Source: a virus | IMG/VR virus record: IMGVR_UViG_3300022745_000113 | Span: 1-33,789 of that record | DNA: 33,789 bases | Reading direction: 5' to 3' (one strand) | Shown: one piece after another, positions 23,115-30,857 of the stretch | How the letters are laid out: every line of letters begins with the position of its first letter | How positions within the stretch are numbered: the stretch's first letter is position 1 | The notes under the pieces: generated by a model | What the model saw: the letters and a program-made list of their open reading frames with translations, nothing else | Told to the model about the DNA's origin: nothing | The model's database searches: none | Translations under genes and position numbers: made by a program

Positions 23115-23573
23115 TCATGCGTAGACCTTCACTGATGGATGGGCTGACTTGATCCTGTTCACGGTGCGCTTGATTGCGGCCTCGTACTGGCTACGGCTGA
23201 TCTGTGACCGCTGGGCGTCGTGCCACCGGAAAGCCTCGCGCAGAGCCTCCAGTTCCACGCCTGCGACGCCAAAACGTCCTGTTCGCTTGTACCGTGCGTG
23301 GATCTCGCCTAGAGCCTCCTGCGCGTGTCTGCCGGGTTCCATCGCTTCCGGGCCAATTTTCATGTGGCACATGGACTCTAGGACGTTGCACATGTCGGCG
23401 AGGGCCATCCAATCGGCTTTCTGAGCGTGGCCCATGCGGAATGCCTCGATGGCCGATAGCTCAGTGAGCCGTAGTTTGTCCAAGTCGGATTCGCTGGTGA
23501 GCGCTGCGCCTGCGATGGCGTGCGTGATCGGGTTCACTAGCGCCCATATCTTGCGCTTGCATCGCTTTCTCAT
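23115..23573 (-). CDS. Conserved phage protein, unknown
   Basis: A 152-residue mostly helical protein. Features: MRKRCKRKIWALVNPITHAIAGAALT, LRLTELSAIEAFRMGHAQKADWMALADMCNVLESM, then GRFGVAGVELEALREAFRWHDAQRSQISRSQYEAAIKRTVNRIKS. This pattern recurs near late-regulator genes of betaproteobacterial and enteric prophages as an uncharacterised protein. The ATG overlaps the stop of the nuclease-like gene (ATGA). It is the last gene before the internal promoter region. Confidence 0.75.
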   Translation of the reverse strand: MRKRCKRKIWALVNPITHAIAGAALTSESDLDKLRLTELSAIEAFRMGHAQKADWMALADMCNVLESMCHMKIGPEAMEPGRHAQEALGEIHARYKRTGRFGVAGVELEALREAFRWHDAQRSQISRSQYEAAIKRTVNRIKSAHPSVKVYA

Positions 23574-23989
23574 CGCACCTCCAACAGGTTCTCGCGGACC
23601 ATCGCCATCACGGTCAGGACGATGGCTCTGTCAATCGTGGCTCTGCGCTGTTCTCTGGTCATGTCTCTCCCTTGGTCGATCTCGGTGTGGCACCTGGGGC
23701 ACAGGGCCGCGCAGGCGCAGTCGTCGGCCTTGAGTCCCATCCCCTTGCCCTGGTTCCTGTGCGCCGCCTGGACGCCATCCGCCCCGCACAACACGCACTT
23801 GCCCAGCTTTCGGACTGCGGCCAGCCAGCGAGGGTTTTGGTACGTCTCAGGCTTCGGTGCTGCTGCACGGGTTCCGCCACCCATCACCGCCGGCCTGCCG
23901 CGTGTGGCCGTCAGGGCGCGGACAGATGCCTCGCGCTCTGCGGCTCGGCGCTGCTGTAGCTCGGCGGGGGATGGGCGGGCGAAGGTCAT
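23570..23989 (-). CDS. DUF1364 / YbcO-like nuclease
   Basis: A 139-residue protein. The N-terminal 60 residues are basic and disordered. The C-terminal domain contains PRWLAAVRKLGKCVLCGADGVQAAHRNQGKGMGLKADDCACAALCPRCHTEIDQG: CxxC, AH, CxxCH in the order of DUF1364/YbcO proteins, a family with an HNH-like treble-clef metal site. It is expected to cut or process phage recombination intermediates. It begins seven bases after the Acb2-type stop, without a clear Shine-Dalgarno; the upstream in-frame ATG at 24061 would overlap that gene and is rejected. Confidence 0.82.
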   Translation of the reverse strand: MTFARPSPAELQQRRAAEREASVRALTATRGRPAVMGGGTRAAAPKPETYQNPRWLAAVRKLGKCVLCGADGVQAAHRNQGKGMGLKADDCACAALCPRCHTEIDQGRDMTREQRRATIDRAIVLTVMAMVRENLLEVR

Positions 23990-23996
23990 GTGGCGG

Positions 23997-24239
23997 TCAG
24001 GCGCGCCAGGTGATCGCCTTGACGGCCCACATCTGCGCCGTCTGCGCTTCGGTGATCGCAACCGACGCCATGCGCTTGACTTCGGGGTCTTCGGTACGGG
24101 CCCGCAGGTCGTTCATGCGGTCGATCACGGCGGCAAATTCCTCCTTGCACTTGGCGACATCAAGGTCCCCGCTGGGGTTGAAGGAGAGGCCGACAGCCTT
24201 CTCGCCGAAGGTCAGTGGCCGTTGGGTTCCATTGCTCAT
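23997..24239 (-). CDS. Acb2/Tad1-family cyclic-nucleotide sponge (anti-defence)
   Basis: An 80-residue helical protein, MSNGTQRPLTFGEKAVGLSFNPSGD, then VAKCKEEFAAVIDRMNDLRAR, then SVAITEAQTAQMWAVKAITW. The FGEKxVxxxFNPSGD opening, long charged helices and the AAMWAVKA-like end are the hallmarks of the Acb2/Tad1 hairpin domain. Characterised members bind cyclic oligonucleotides made by CBASS, or the gcADPR-type signal of Thoeris, and so block host abortive immunity. Which ligand this one binds cannot be told from sequence. GGAG lies five bases before the ATG, and the ATG overlaps the stop of a 51-codon frame (ATGA). Confidence 0.85.
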   Translation of the reverse strand: MSNGTQRPLTFGEKAVGLSFNPSGDLDVAKCKEEFAAVIDRMNDLRARTEDPEVKRMASVAITEAQTAQMWAVKAITWRA

Positions 24240-24461
24240 GCTTGCTCCAGTTGTGCGGCAGATGAATGCGCTGCCGCTTCGCTTGATCCGTCGAGGTGCG
24301 TCACCCGCATCCCAAGCTCCTGCGCGATATGCAGTTCCAGCCTGGCGACCTTGCTGAACGTGGTGCGCCTCGCTTGGTCCGGGTGCGTCACAGACTGAGC
24401 ACGGCAGGGCCTTCACTGAGTGCAGGTGCTTTCTCTCGCGGTCTGTCAGACGATTGTTCAT
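23997..24461 (-). CDS. HNH-like N-terminus reading in frame into Acb2/Tad1 domain
   Basis: From ATG 24461 (overlapping the upstream stop in ATGA) an open frame of 154 codons runs without stop to the Acb2/Tad1 stop. The first 40 residues, MNNRLTDRERKHLHSVKALP then CSVCDAPGPSEAHH, match the first half of a zinc-binding HNH protein of the Ref-like group. The second metal half (CxxCH) is absent and replaced by a low-complexity stretch of about 35 residues. So this is either a true fusion protein made in addition to the internally started 80-residue protein, or a deletion/recombination remnant whose frame happens to stay open. Confidence 0.5.
   Translation of the reverse strand: MNNRLTDRERKHLHSVKALPCSVCDAPGPSEAHHVQQGRQAGTAYRAGAWDAGDAPRRIKRSGSAFICRTTGASMSNGTQRPLTFGEKAVGLSFNPSGDLDVAKCKEEFAAVIDRMNDLRARTEDPEVKRMASVAITEAQTAQMWAVKAITWRA
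24236..24391 (-). CDS. 51-codon frame overlapping the HNH-Acb2 junction
   Basis: In the frame one base shifted from the HNH-like remnant, an ORF from GTG (24389-24391) reads VTHPDQARRTTFSKVARLEL, continues HIAQELGMRVTHLDGSSEAAAH and ends with LEQA at a TGA that overlaps the Acb2 ATG by four bases. The amphipathic helix and the coupling overlap suggest a real gene or the end of one. No Shine-Dalgarno precedes the GTG, so it may be the 3' end of a gene whose 5' part was replaced. Confidence 0.45.
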   Translation of the reverse strand: MTHPDQARRTTFSKVARLELHIAQELGMRVTHLDGSSEAAAHSSAAQLEQA

Positions 24462-24817
24462 GCTACGGTCGCGTTCATCCATTCCACACGCGCACGCAAA
24501 ATCCGACGTTCTTGATCACCGAATTGCTTTTTCGTGGCGCTAATAGTGTCTTCAGCCCGGTTCAGCAATGCATTTCTGATTTGTTCGGCATCAGCACCGA
24601 TCAATTGAGCGTATGCCTGGAATACGGAATTCTTTCCAAACAGAAAGCGGATTGCATCGCTTGCTTCGGTGTCAATGTTTCTCTTGGCTTTCTGTTCTTT
24701 CTCTGTTGGCTTGATACATGCGTCCCTGATTGCCTGAGCAATCACAGCGGACAAAAGTTGCGCACATGCCGCCGTCTGTGGCTCCGTACCTTCGCGTGTA
24801 GAAACGAAATCAATCAC
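24458..24817 (-). CDS. Helical early protein, unknown
   Basis: About 119 residues from GTG 24817 (weak AGGG upstream) or 138 from ATG 24874, which lacks a ribosome binding site. The body is helical and charged: TAACAQLLSAVIAQAIRDACIKPTEKEQKAKRNIDTEASDAIRFLFGKNSVFQAYAQLIGADAEQIRNALLNRAEDT, with an RRILRARVEWMNATVA end. AT content is higher than in flanking genes. The stretch DTEASDAIRFLFG...FQAYAQLIGADAEQIR recalls small phage proteins described only as hypothetical. Start is uncertain. Confidence 0.65.
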   Translation of the reverse strand: MIDFVSTREGTEPQTAACAQLLSAVIAQAIRDACIKPTEKEQKAKRNIDTEASDAIRFLFGKNSVFQAYAQLIGADAEQIRNALLNRAEDTISATKKQFGDQERRILRARVEWMNATVA

Positions 24818-24830
24818 CAGTGTGTCCCTT

Positions 24831-24950
24831 TCATCGTTGCCATTCCCTATAGGCTTGCATCGGCGTATACCCATACCCTATGCGCATTCCAGACGCGCAT
24901 ACCGTGCGGCATGTCCAGATTCCGTGCTTGCGGTAGATGCGGGGCTTCAT
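24831..24950 (-). CDS. Small MKPRIYR-type protein
   Basis: A 39-residue protein starting MKPRIYRKHGIWTC and ending GYGYTPMQAYREWQR. Small proteins with MKPRIY(W/R)xxGxW...TPxxAYxxW are widespread in phage and prophage early regions. The ATG overlaps the stop of the methyltransferase-like gene (ATGA). Function is unknown. The N-terminal extension offered by the longer open frame is a shadow of that gene. Confidence 0.75.
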   Translation of the reverse strand: MKPRIYRKHGIWTCRTVCASGMRIGYGYTPMQAYREWQR

Positions 24951-25535
24951 GCGGCCTCCAAAAGGTCCAATTGGCCGTGCAGCGCATCCGATCCCCACTG
25001 GCTCGACATGGCGTTGGCAATGCCTTTGAATGTCCTGCTGCGCTCTTTCCACCTGTCTGGACCGGGAGGCATCCAATGAACCCTTGGCTCTCTGCCTGGC
25101 ACAATGTCAGTCGGAGTCAGCGGCGGCAGTCCCTTGAGCCACAGGCATGTGGTCTTCGCCTCTCCGTGCCCAAACTGCCACGGGTGGATGATCTGATCCG
25201 GCTTCCTGATTCGGCTGCTGATGATGCTCACTGGGTTTTCGATGGCGATGCGCTTGATCGGTGCGGCCATCAGGAAGCGGACAAACTCCAGAGCCTCTGC
25301 CTGTTGACTTTTCTTGTCCTTGAACCACCGGCTACCACTGACGGCCAGGTGAGTGCATGGAGGATGGGCAATCATCAGATCCCATCCGTCCAACAGAACA
25401 TCGCGCACATCGCCCTGATAGTGCGGGCCTTCCGATTCTGTCGGAAGCAGATCACAACTCATGGCGTTGTGCCCCCCCCCGGATGAAGGCATCACGAACA
25501 GTTCCTGAGTATTCGCAGGCAATCAGGACTCTCAT
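24947..25535 (-). CDS. Cytosine-methyltransferase-like gene, frameshifted in a G9 tract
   Basis: From ATG 25535, which overlaps the ninB stop in ATGA, the frame reads MRVLIACEYSGTVRDAFIR, the expected SAM-binding motif I of DNA C5-methyltransferase-like phage proteins, and then runs out of frame in nine G (plus-strand C 25472-25480). The rest of the family lies in the next frame: GHNAMSCDLLPTE, a PPCTHLAVSGSRWF motif IV (PPC), KRIAIENPVSIISSRIRKPDQIIHP, and MPPGPDRWKERSRTF. Removing one G restores a 195-residue protein. The gene may be a sequencing error, a phase-variable gene, or dependent on slippage. It probably modifies cytosine in phage DNA or is a relative lacking activity. Confidence 0.8.
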
Positions 25536-25948
25536 GCTTCCCTCGGTGCCAAGTCATAGAACGTCACGCCCAGTTCGGTGCAGGCCCACGCCTCCACCTG
25601 ATCGCAGAACGCTGAGAATTCCGCCGTGCTCAAGTTAGTGCTGCTCATGCCCACGACAGAGCCATCAGGTAACTCCACCACGCCGATGAACTTGCGCTTT
25701 GCCAGTTCGTGCCATGTTTCAGCCGCGTACAACTTGCCGTTGACAGTGGCCTGCGATGCGATTTGAGCCAGTACTCCGCTCCCCCAGTAGCGTCGGTTCT
25801 GTGCAGCCGTGCGCTTGCGCCTGGTGATCGTGAGCACCCAGCGTCCACCGGCCTGGAGTACCTGGCGCAGGAACGGGAATACTTGCGCTTGAATCGCCGC
25901 CCATGCTTGCTGGCGGCTGTGCAGTTCGATGGTGAGGGAATCGCTCAC
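25532..25948 (-). CDS. ninB: NinB-like recombination mediator
   Basis: A 138-residue protein that resembles lambda NinB (Orf), a single-strand DNA binding recombination mediator that replaces RecFOR. Recognised parts: VLQAGGRWVLTITRRKRTAAQNRRYWG, then VNGKLYAAETWHELAKRKFIG, and the C-terminal STAEFSAFCDQVEAWACTELGVTF. Start GTG overlaps the preceding stop (GTGA). It sits with RusA in the same operon, as in lambdoid recombination blocks. Confidence 0.9.
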   Translation of the reverse strand: MSDSLTIELHSRQQAWAAIQAQVFPFLRQVLQAGGRWVLTITRRKRTAAQNRRYWGSGVLAQIASQATVNGKLYAAETWHELAKRKFIGVVELPDGSVVGMSSTNLSTAEFSAFCDQVEAWACTELGVTFYDLAPREA

Positions 25949-26360: not shown

Positions 26361-26527
26361 ACCGCCCCCTCGAAAAGATCCGGCGTCATCTTGTCCCGGC
26401 TCACATGCATAGATTTGCCCTGCTTCCTTTGCGCTTTCGCAGGACGTGCATAGCTTTCGCACTTGGGGCCGAGTCCTGATGGCGTGCTGTGCTTCAGCCG
26501 GCGTCCGCAGCGTGTGCAGCGGATCAT
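26357..26527 (-). CDS. Small zinc-ribbon-like protein
   Basis: A 56-residue protein, MIRCTRCGRRLKHSTPSGLGPKC, with CxxC...C and a following Lys-rich tail (PAKAQRKQGK). The CxxCGRxL...GLGPxC pattern is a common small phage zinc knuckle family of unknown function, probably binding nucleic acid. The ATG overlaps the RusA stop and the stop overlaps the next gene, both in ATGA. It is missed if only ORFs of 60 codons or more are considered. Confidence 0.78.
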   Translation of the reverse strand: MIRCTRCGRRLKHSTPSGLGPKCESYARPAKAQRKQGKSMHVSRDKMTPDLFEGAV

Positions 26528-26883
26528 CCCAGCACCACCACAATCTGACCGCCTGCCACCTTGTGCCCACGGGTCAGCGTCAGCGGGTGGAACTTGCTGT
26601 CATCAATCCCCAGCGCACGGGCCACGCCGTCCAACGCTGGCTTGCAAGCAGCAAGCAAGTTGTCAAGATCACGCGCCCGGTAGTCTGGTGCGTGGAACGC
26701 GATGGACAGCGGGATGTCCTTGTCCACATCGAGCTTGAAGCACTTAGGAACGCCGTTCCTAGCCGCCACGAATGCGCCATCGCGGGCTGAATCCTTCACG
26801 GCCTTTACCGCCATCCAAGCCTTTCCGTTCTTTCGGTTTGGGTTCAGTCTGCTATCAGGCCACGGCAGGGTAATGGTGATCAT
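26524..26883 (-). CDS. rusA: RusA-like Holliday junction resolvase
   Basis: A 119-residue protein, MITITLPWPDSRLNPNRKNGK. RusA enzymes are dimers that cleave Holliday junctions during phage recombination. Characteristic elements: PDYRARDLDNLLAACKPALDGVARALGIDDSKF with the acidic residues D-LDN and GIDDS expected for metal binding, and the ITLPWP start. Length matches E. coli RusA (120). The ATG overlaps the HNH-like stop (ATGA); the open frame extends further upstream but only in the shadow of that gene. Confidence 0.93.
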   Translation of the reverse strand: MITITLPWPDSRLNPNRKNGKAWMAVKAVKDSARDGAFVAARNGVPKCFKLDVDKDIPLSIAFHAPDYRARDLDNLLAACKPALDGVARALGIDDSKFHPLTLTRGHKVAGGQIVVVLG

Positions 26884-27401
26884 CGCGCCCCCAGACCGGA
26901 GAAAGGAGACGCCGCGAATTCCTTCCACGCTTCTCCGCGCTTGATCTTGCGCAGCATGGACAGGCTGATGGGGTATTCGCCCAGCAGTTCCCCCGGGGTC
27001 TTGGGGGACTCACGGATTTCGCGTGCGTCTGCCAGACTGATCTTGGCGTGCGTCTTGCGCCTCAAGTTCGCCAGGGCCTGATAGATCCTCGGCTTGACAT
27101 CGGGCCGGTTGACCATCTTGGACAGGATCTCCCCGACGTAGGTCGGCTTCAGGTGATCGCGGGCCAAGCACCTGGGGTTGTCACAGGTGGTCATGCGCTC
27201 CTTCGTCCCCAGGGAGCGTCCACCGTATGCAGCCCAGGCCAGCCGGCGGACGTGGACTGAGCCATCGCGCTCGCGCGTCACTGGCGCACCGCTTCTGCTC
27301 ACCAGCCCGTCCCAGATCAGGCAATCACCATCCTCATGGCACCGCTCGGCGAGCCATTCGACCGTCACCACCTCCAGCAAATATTCCGTTCTCTTGCTCA
27401 C
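26880..27401 (-). CDS. HNH-like protein with degenerate catalytic motif
   Basis: A 173-residue protein starting at GTG (GTGA overlap). Residues about 20-90 show the HNH_3-type arrangement: CLIWDGLVSRSGAP, VHVRRLAWAAYGG, CDNPRCLARDHLKPT. The usual HR of the first conserved HNH position is RR here, and the DHxC site preceding NPRC is TTC, so the catalytic site looks altered. The C-terminal part contains a helix-turn-helix-like stretch (ISLADAREIRESPKTPGELLGEYPISLSMLRKIKRG) as found in phage HNH homing-type proteins. Either a DNA-binding protein or an altered nuclease. Confidence 0.78.
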   Translation of the reverse strand: MSKRTEYLLEVVTVEWLAERCHEDGDCLIWDGLVSRSGAPVTRERDGSVHVRRLAWAAYGGRSLGTKERMTTCDNPRCLARDHLKPTYVGEILSKMVNRPDVKPRIYQALANLRRKTHAKISLADAREIRESPKTPGELLGEYPISLSMLRKIKRGEAWKEFAASPFSGLGAR

Positions 27402-28590: not shown

Positions 28591-28907
28591 AGCCATCTCC
28601 GATACGTTCTGGCAAATTCCGCGTGTTCATCCGTCGCGCCAAGCTCCCCCGCATGGCAAGATGCCCCAAGAAGGCGTGTATTCAGTCCTTGGAGCGCGTC
28701 AATTACATGGGTCGCTAGGGTGGTAGCCACATCCATGAAAATCACGAATACGGGCATTCCAACGAGGGGCCGAAGATCAGCGCCGATCCGGTCCACGATC
28801 ACGGTGTTGGGTTCGTCCATCGGCAACTTGGCATTGCCGACAACTACGAGGACCGCTTCGGGGCGGTAGCCAGTGCGGCGCATCTCTCGGAGGGATTCCA
28901 GGCTCAT
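28575..28907 (-). CDS. Early replication-region protein, unknown
   Basis: A 110-residue protein. The stretch RPEAVLVVVGNAK, PNTVIVDRIGADLRPLVGMPVFVIFMDV suggests a small alpha/beta fold, followed by a helical end (ADEHAEFARTYRRWLCEMT). It lies between initiator and helicase genes, with a 4-base overlap at its start, and overlaps the helicase by 16 bases. It could be a helicase loader or accessory by position only; no loader motif (AAA+) is present. Confidence 0.7.
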   Translation of the reverse strand: MSLESLREMRRTGYRPEAVLVVVGNAKLPMDEPNTVIVDRIGADLRPLVGMPVFVIFMDVATTLATHVIDALQGLNTRLLGASCHAGELGATDEHAEFARTYRRWLCEMT

Positions 28908-29692
28908 ATCGCCCCCGCCAGCAAAGATTGCGACTGATGCTTTCCACGGCCCGGTGTGTCCTGAGCCTTTGCCAGCCAGCGGTTAGCGAATGCACCCACG
29001 CCACGGGCGGTCTTTCGGTTGGCAGGGTTGGCAATCGACCATGCCCGCATCTCTCGCAGTTCCTGCTCAACGTCCACAGCAGGGAAAGCTGTCTTCCACT
29101 CGGTCAGCAGGTTGACCGGAACTTGCCATTCCGTCGAGTCGTTCAGCGGGATTGCGAAGCCGCTTGCAGGCAGAGAGCCGACAGGCTCGGCGCTATCTGT
29201 TTTCTGTTCTTGTTTCTGTTCTTGTTTCTGTTCTTGTTTCTGTTCTTGTTTCTGTTTCTGGTTAAGCAAGGGTTGCTTAACGGTTATGGAAGGCTTCTGC
29301 TCAACTCCCAAGAATTCGGCGTTTGCGTTCAAGAATTGGGACTTCCAAGATGCCAGATCTGGCACTGAAAGCGCCTGCTTGATGACCGCTTTTTTCTGGT
29401 TCGGGTTCTCCGGCGGGTTCCACTCAAGATGCTTGATGACCCAAACCCACTTAGAGGTTTCGCAACGGTTCGCAAACCCTTTCTGAAACAGTTCCCGGAA
29501 CCCTTCCGAAACCTGCTCTGGTGTCCATTGCATGTCTTCGCATATGTACCCATCAGGAAGCTGGAAGACTCCTGCAATGTTGCTGTGCGGGCTGGTGAGA
29601 AGGTAGAGCGCAAGCAGACGACCAGAGTCGCTGAGTGACCTTGCGGTATCCCCAGACCAAAATCGCGTGTAAACCTTTCCGTAGTCCCTCAT
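28904..29692 (-). CDS. Replication initiator (lambda O / replisome organiser-like)
   Basis: A 262-residue protein with three parts. Residues 1-110 (MRDYGKVYTRFWSGDTARSL, LLALYLLTSPHSNIAGVFQLP) are a winged-helix-like domain of phage replisome organisers. Residues about 140-165 are a KQEQ low-complexity linker encoded by 12-bp direct repeats. The C-terminal domain (WKTAFPAVDVEQELREMRAWSIANPANRKTARGVGAFANRWLAKAQD) is the DnaT-like DNA or helicase-binding part. It is placed directly before the helicase. ATG overlaps the preceding stop (ATGA). Confidence 0.88.
   Translation of the reverse strand: MRDYGKVYTRFWSGDTARSLSDSGRLLALYLLTSPHSNIAGVFQLPDGYICEDMQWTPEQVSEGFRELFQKGFANRCETSKWVWVIKHLEWNPPENPNQKKAVIKQALSVPDLASWKSQFLNANAEFLGVEQKPSITVKQPLLNQKQKQEQKQEQKQEQKQEQKTDSAEPVGSLPASGFAIPLNDSTEWQVPVNLLTEWKTAFPAVDVEQELREMRAWSIANPANRKTARGVGAFANRWLAKAQDTPGRGKHQSQSLLAGAI
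29201..29260. repeat. 12-bp direct repeats in the initiator gene (candidate iterons)
   Basis: Four perfect tandem copies of TTTCTGTTCTTG (plus strand) span 29201-29248, with a fifth imperfect copy at 29249-29260. They encode the KQEQ linker. Strand composition is extreme: the plus strand has no A here. Position between the two domains of the initiator mirrors lambda ori iterons inside gene O. Confidence 0.9.
29261..29281. other. Perfect inverted repeat next to the iterons (candidate origin core)
   Basis: GTTAAGCAA, three G, TTGCTTAAC: 9-bp arms with a 3-base centre, immediately adjoining the 12-bp repeats. It is AT-richer than surroundings and stays in the coding frame of the initiator. Being followed by AT-rich sequence (29299-29340) it could be the core of a replication origin. 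Assignment is inference. Confidence 0.7.
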
Positions 29693-29979
29693 GCCCTCAA
29701 CTCCTGCGCCTGCTGGCTGCTGAAGTACCCCACGCCGTCATCGATCTCGCGCAGCAGCGCTCTGTCCCACGCCTGGACGATCTCCGGGCGGCGCATGGTC
29801 ATGCTCTGCGTCATCCTGCGTGCCCACCACACTGCTGACTCGCTCTGACCTGCTGCGGTGGCATTGCTGGAGTTCTTGGCGCAGAACTGGATCAAGCGTT
29901 CCGTGTCGTGGTCAGAGCCACGGACCTCGACGCCTTCAAGCATCTGGCCGACAGGGGTGGAGAGAACGCAGTTTTTCAC
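29689..29979 (-). CDS. Early protein next to initiator, unknown
   Basis: A 96-residue protein starting at GTG (GTGA overlap with the methyltransferase stop) and ending in an ATGA overlap with the initiator. Sequence: MKNCVLSTPVGQMLEGVEVRGSDHDTERLIQFC followed by helices (ESAVWWARRMTQSMTMRRPEIVQAWDRALLREIDDGVGYF). No metal or nucleotide motifs. I do not recognise it. Confidence 0.72.
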   Translation of the reverse strand: MKNCVLSTPVGQMLEGVEVRGSDHDTERLIQFCAKNSSNATAAGQSESAVWWARRMTQSMTMRRPEIVQAWDRALLREIDDGVGYFSSQQAQELRA

Positions 29980-30857
29980 GCTGCCTCCGCAAACAGATCC
30001 TGTGCTGTCTCTCGGGTGGCTGCGTCCAGGTTCTTGACGGCTTGATCAAAGTAGGACTTCTTCAGTTCCACACCAACGAACTTTCTGCCCATCTGCAGGG
30101 ACACAAAGCCCTCAGAGCCGATGCCCATGAACGGACTCAGCACCACATCGCCGGGATTGGTCCACAGTTGGACGCCGCGCCGTATCACATCGAGCTGCAG
30201 GGGGCAGATGTGCCTCTCATCGTCGTGCTCTCGGGCGCTGCGGTATTGCAGGGTGTCGGACGGGTTGATATCCATCCAGACAGGACTAGCGACCTTCTGC
30301 CATAGGTCCACCGGGTAATCATCGTGCGTGACGCGCTGGGCCTGTTCTCCGGGTGTCCGCATGGTGATCAGGTAATCGGGGATGCCCTGCCGGCACATGG
30401 CCGCGTTCTCCCGCACGGACTTGTGCAGCAGGCCGAGTGCCTTGGTGCGCTGCATGGCCGTCACCGGGTCTTTCCAGATGGTCGCCTTGGCATGGAAGAT
30501 GAACCCGTGCCGCTGGAAGGCCCGGATCAGATCACCGGGGAAGTCCTTCAAACCGATGTAGCCGTCGCGCTCCTTGCTGGCCGGCATGTCCATGCAGTGA
30601 AACGACACATCCCGTCCGGGCATCATCACGCGGCGCAGTTCAGCAATCAGGAATTCGAAGTGTTCGAAGAATTCCTCATGCGTTCGGCAGTTGCCCATGT
30701 CCCTCGGGCTGTTAGAGTATGTGTAAAGCGACGCAAAAGGCGGGCTGAAGATGCTGTAGCCGATGCACTGATCAGGGATGCCTTTCAGTGCTTCTACACA
30801 GTCACCATGCACTGCGGTGTAGTTGTCGGTCACGACTTGATCGATGCAGTTCATCAT
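29976..30857 (-). CDS. N4/N6-type DNA methyltransferase
   Basis: A 293-residue amino-methyltransferase using SAM. Motif IV (SPPF, residues about 38-41) comes first, with a probable target-recognition region in the middle, and motif I (SPFMGIGSEG) near residue 235, the order of beta-class enzymes. SPPF is compatible with N4-cytosine or N6-adenine modification. No restriction nuclease is nearby, so it is a phage orphan methyltransferase, likely protecting phage DNA from host restriction or marking it for regulation. It overlaps the helicase stop by four bases. Confidence 0.92.
   Translation of the reverse strand: MMNCIDQVVTDNYTAVHGDCVEALKGIPDQCIGYSIFSPPFASLYTYSNSPRDMGNCRTHEEFFEHFEFLIAELRRVMMPGRDVSFHCMDMPASKERDGYIGLKDFPGDLIRAFQRHGFIFHAKATIWKDPVTAMQRTKALGLLHKSVRENAAMCRQGIPDYLITMRTPGEQAQRVTHDDYPVDLWQKVASPVWMDINPSDTLQYRSAREHDDERHICPLQLDVIRRGVQLWTNPGDVVLSPFMGIGSEGFVSLQMGRKFVGVELKKSYFDQAVKNLDAATRETAQDLFAEAA

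Follow-up and report, generated by a model that had tools for sequence, protein, structure and literature searches.

A minus-strand gene of an IMG/VR virus record, analysed here over its whole 33,789 bases (the window), probably encodes an Acb2-type sponge that belongs to an N-terminally distinct clade. We put the probability of this reading, in which oligomerisation, ligand binding and counter-defence are inferred, at about three in four. Homology, an Acb2-like predicted protomer and the conservation of positions equivalent to K23, T68 and R79 were computed from sequences and models. The helical-hairpin protein would be made as a product of 80 residues and would oligomerise via its hairpins. 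The oligomer would then hold a cyclic nucleotide immune signal in pockets between protomers, and with this signal sequestered, the effector of the host CBASS system (or of a related signalling defence) would stay off.

The 80-aa frame is a real gene, and its own ATG is the likely true start. The GGAG site that the initial annotation had noted is present 5 nt upstream of this ATG (the surrounding letters are GGAGCAAGCATG; ...CTGGAGCAAGCATG), and the ATG overlaps the TGA of a 51-aa ORF in the sequence ATGA. Codon usage was assessed with a log-odds score trained on the window's own sure genes. By this measure, the 80-aa frame reaches 0.38 per codon, while the sure genes score 0.31 +/- 0.15 on-frame and -0.26 +/- 0.16 off-frame. 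Both peptides that had been quoted for the 80-residue protein, TFGEKAVGLSFNPSGD and AQMWAVKAITW, match letter for letter; the strand had been left out and is minus. The features of the region are listed in the table.

Table. Features in and around the putative sponge gene (coordinates of the window)
Feature	Coordinates	Strand	Evidence or remark
HNH endonuclease downstream (DUF968 / NinG-like position)	23570..23989	-	phrog_131, PF06147
80-aa Acb2/Tad1-hairpin gene (P0002)	23997..24239	-	PF24729, relatives, AlphaFold2 model, codon usage; ATG at 24239, stop finishing at 23997
51-aa ORF	24236..24391	-	Frame differs from that of the 80-aa gene; TGA overlaps the ATG of that gene
GGAG ribosome-binding site	24245..24248	-	Spacing of 5 nt to the ATG of the 80-aa gene
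5' remnant (40 codons) of an HNH / Ref-like nuclease gene	24342..24461	-	phrog_1588, identity to L024/L025/L029
DNA methyltransferase	24947-25522	-	phrog_757
NinB/Orf recombination mediator	25532..25948	-	phrog_72, E 1.6e-21
RusA-like Holliday junction resolvase	26524..26928	-	phrog_34, E 5e-19
DnaD-like helicase-loader gene	28904-29692	-	Low-complexity run QKQEQKQEQKQEQKQEQK mid-protein
DNA methyltransferase	29976-30857	-	phrog_67

A longer in-frame ORF (24482..23997, minus strand, 161 aa) encloses the gene. The initial annotation had called its N-terminus unrelated to the sponge family, and this part is indeed the remnant of an HNH gene, as indicated by phrog_1588 (E 1.2e-7, residues 8-47), by alignment to the protein of locus L024 and by codon usage. 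The remnant is 64% identical over 44 aa to proteins of loci L024, L025 and L029, and the intact homologue in L024 has 97 aa. The homology stops after AHHVQQGRQ, where the intact L024 protein goes on with ALCYDCHQG..., and the remnant lacks the second Cys pair, the C-terminal half and a complete two-half metal-binding HNH motif. A functional product of 154-161 aa, in which an HNH-like domain is fused to the hairpin, would be permitted by the open frame and by an ATG at 24461 that overlaps the stop of the upstream gene. However, we regard such a product as extremely improbable, because the HNH portion is without its second metal-binding half, the linker to the 80-aa gene has an out-of-frame-like codon score (-0.13), and the 80-aa start comes with a Shine-Dalgarno site of its own and with an ATGA overlap. 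Furthermore, none of the relatives examined, including a few with longer open frames, has an HNH fragment that shares the frame of the hairpin gene. Relatives typically measure 72-91 aa from their nearest own start, and most meet an upstream stop soon after. We conclude that the 161-aa frame is an accident private to the present genome, derived from a broken neighbouring HNH gene. Since its N-terminus is an HNH remnant, the warning that a gene caller choosing the long frame would blur the family was right. The description of the gene as hidden holds in the present record and fails in deposited phages, where relatives are mostly stand-alone genes.

The 51-aa ORF sits between the HNH remnant and the sponge gene, and has a GTG start without a clear Shine-Dalgarno site and a weak codon bias (0.107). 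Profile and sequence searches gave no family and no convincing relatives for it. Its identification as a known gene was rejected, as there were merely 20-residue, chance-level matches to MazG-like genes of mycobacteriophages (E >= 2). It may be the 3' end of a gene that recombination near 24342 joined to the HNH remnant, or else a frameshifted gene.

Assignment of the 80-aa protein to the Acb2/Tad1 family, as initially proposed, is borne out by the profile search. The Acb2/Tad1 hairpin model PF24729 matches with 41.7 bits (E 1.3e-10; curated cut-off 27), the match spanning the hairpin only (residues 32-77), and it also matches 43/43 aligned relatives. Their alignment has 23 invariant columns. 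The clade has an invariant N-terminal motif, TFGEKAVGLxFNP; F20 is invariant across the aligned relatives, and position 11 is Phe or Tyr in all listed relatives, with Ile instead in FCL2, which is more remote. Neither the 80-aa protein nor T4 Acb2 is covered by an NCBIfam model, PADLOC has none for the 80-aa protein, and a single-sequence phmmer search against the PDB returned chance helical matches alone (CO dehydrogenase, E 0.014). The protein adds a member to a known family. Public records give the clade no function beyond the domain title, although homologue surveys may have tested it.

Relatives of the 80-aa protein are encoded by at least 226 stretches of IMG/VR viral contigs, the best being 76-80% identical. 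They were also found, labelled as hypothetical, in GenBank phages of Pasteurella, Enterobacter, Providencia and Flavobacterium, and in species genomes of Proteobacteria, Bacteroidota, Saccharibacteria and others. In the genome of Avibacterium paragallinarum NCTC11296, a relative of the sponge gene occurs five times (L094-L098), which probably reflects several related prophages. In a check for an association with CBASS in hosts, a SMODS nucleotidyltransferase exceeded the cut-off in 5/25 relative-carrying genomes; as this fraction has no proper base rate for comparison, we draw no conclusion from it. Acb2 homologues of Pseudomonas phages (L132 283-513; H138, H140 and H152) were deposited under the name 'NAD/FAD-utilizing enzyme', apparently by misannotation.

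In agreement with the earlier description of a helical protein, AlphaFold2 run with the 43 relatives predicted three helices at a pLDDT of 93.3: a short helix (11-15), followed by the FNP loop, and two long antiparallel helices (26-48 and 52-76), with zero strands. This model supersedes a single-sequence prediction (pLDDT 78) that had two low-confidence strands at residues 5-20. The Acb2 protomer has been described as a long helical hairpin preceded by a short helix at the N-terminus, whereas Tad1 has a four-stranded antiparallel N-terminal beta-sheet ahead of two helices (PMC12043709). Because the predicted helix layout is that of the published Acb2 protomer, the predicted architecture is Acb2-type, and the model points to Acb2 and not to Tad1. 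With VIA-align, T4 Vs.4 superposes on the model over 60 residues (rmsd 2.5 A, Z 6.9), which is support and not proof, since unrelated helical hairpins also reach Z 6.9. Foldseek searches returned generic helical proteins only from the PDB, with the Acb2 structures not near the top, and nothing at E <= 0.001 from the viral models, the top rows of which are named Acb2/Tad1 hairpin proteins. Two proteins entered in UniProt/BFVD as 'Acb2/Tad1 hairpin domain-containing' have the same fold by model comparison, namely A0A411AWH0 of Providencia phage PS3 and A0A6J5LWM4 (query-normalised TM-scores 0.72 and 0.81; identity 39% and 31%). The PS3 protein shares the FNP motif with the 80-aa protein. We know of no experimental data on either.

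The tested Acb2 sponges, T4 Vs.4 (PDB 7uq2) and p26 of Pseudomonas phage PaP2 (PDB 8h2j), share with the 80-aa protein the short helix and long hairpin, PF24729, the hairpin signature T-x-x-(Q)-...-M-(W/A)-x-x-(K/R)-A and a Lys early in the first long helix. Known Acb2 is hexameric, with three pockets for dinucleotides and a central channel for trinucleotides, and K26 of PaP2 Acb2 is a ligand residue. When the relatives' profile was run against the PDB, the best match was T4 Vs.4 (E 0.29), in register over MWA(C/V)(R/K)A. Profile-profile comparison with a set of ten Acb2 proteins of the T4 and PaP2 types gave a probability of 88% (P 3e-6). The aligned core is VAITEAQTAQMWAVKAIT in the 80-aa protein versus IGKTDIQTGMMAIIRAIA in PaP2 and IAKTKLKEASMWACRAVF in T4.

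Three residues that are invariant among the relatives align with T4 Acb2 positions: T63 with T68, for which the T68M exchange was reported to lower binding (PMC12657230), K32 with K23, and K74 with R79, a conservative change. From its conservation, we assume R79 to be a ligand contact. F82 of T4 Acb2 stacks on the ligand base (PMC12657218); its position is occupied by T77 here, with Trp78 adjoining, and by Phe in the divergent members PS3 and FCL2. The main departure from Acb2 is at the N-terminus. Y8 of T4 Acb2 is required for dinucleotide binding (PMC12657218), and this tyrosine of the GY(R/K) motif (Y11 in PaP2) stands opposite a gap in the 80-aa protein, where TFGEKAVGLxFNP takes the place of the N-terminal tyrosine region. 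The C-terminal QP tail of Acb2 is also absent, and N23 and P90, invariant in the comparison set, are unmatched. As the defining tyrosine is absent, we do not claim strict Acb2 membership and file the protein under an Acb2-type hairpin clade. The missing tyrosine alone does not lower the expectation that the protein works like Acb2, and judging from the alignment, F/Y11 and F20 are possible stand-ins. Ligand specificity may differ from that of T4 and PaP2 Acb2, because this tyrosine is gone and the clade has its own invariant motif there.

The initial annotation had placed the gene in a nin-like region next to recombination genes, and NinB, RusA and HNH proteins are indeed present, together with a DnaB-like helicase, a helicase loader and a further helicase. 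The large terminase of the window is ~51% identical to those of Pseudomonas phages, e.g. H66 and LKA5. For the downstream HNH gene, the matches to phrog_131 (E 4e-26) and PF06147 (27.9 bits at a cut-off of 27.8) were both obtained with a 163-aa ORF starting from TTG 24061, but ATG 23989 is the likelier start. The two methyltransferases possibly protect from restriction; the phrog_757 enzyme is up to 74% identical to a gene of Burkholderia phage Bcep1 and 70% to cyanophage genes. Antisense open frames run through the nin-like region (23622-24398, plus strand, 258 aa; 24296-25486, plus strand, 396 aa) and are probably shadows of the G+C-rich coding strand. In other phages, relatives lie near helicases, nucleases or the terminase, the names of the neighbour clusters having been assigned by reading the cluster sequences. 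The relatives at L137 (2986-3219), L138 (2992-3216) and L135 (2501-2698) directly adjoin the terminase (DSL-LC05, Pmp11) or are flanked by genes for internal virion proteins (Providencia phage PS3).

Two other functions have to be weighed against an Acb2-type sponge. A Tad1-type sponge directed at the cADPR signals of Thoeris would be compatible with PF24729, as this model takes in the hairpins of both Acb2 and Tad1, and the strands of the single-sequence model could be seen as a trace of the Tad1 sheet. However, 80 aa are too short for the four-stranded N-terminal sheet of Tad1 (PMC12043709), the protein has no such domain, the confident AlphaFold2 model is strand-free, and the sequence searches recovered Acb2 and not Tad1. 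We therefore consider this assignment very unlikely. The protein might also share descent with Acb2 and have taken on a new job, e.g. as an assembly or packaging accessory, with the hairpin as a mere oligomerisation module. The loss of the N-terminal binding tyrosine in favour of a different invariant motif would fit such a change, as would the 23 invariant columns, a very high conservation for an arms-race gene. A structural role is made possible by the terminase neighbours: the gene adjoins terminase or virion genes in several phages, and TerL is among the recurrent neighbour clusters. On the other hand, no neighbour is constant (helicase, nuclease, terminase and nin genes all occur), as expected for a movable accessory gene, and T63, K74 and K32, at pocket positions of the hairpin, do not vary. 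We thus think a change of function unlikely and favour the Acb2-type sponge.

Within the sponge reading, the clade with the TFGEKAVGLxFNP motif could form a separate sponge class, in which a rebuilt N-terminal lid on the Acb2 hairpin selects an immune signal different from those that the Acb2 of T4 or PaP2 holds. This proposal is tentative and we would not bet on it; the unusually strong conservation would then be due to a ligand that itself cannot change. Superfamily members that have been tested silence CBASS and Thoeris signalling; in certain hosts they trip the Panoptes trap (PMC12657218). The phage relatives are still annotated as 'hypothetical protein' despite belonging to a sponge superfamily, and the present case is a caution: during gene calling, a short gene of this kind may end up fused to a broken neighbour. 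Members of the clade abound in the phages and prophages of Proteobacteria, Bacteroidota and candidate-phylum bacteria. Being widespread, highly conserved and distinct in its N-terminal lid, the clade clearly merits a ligand screen.
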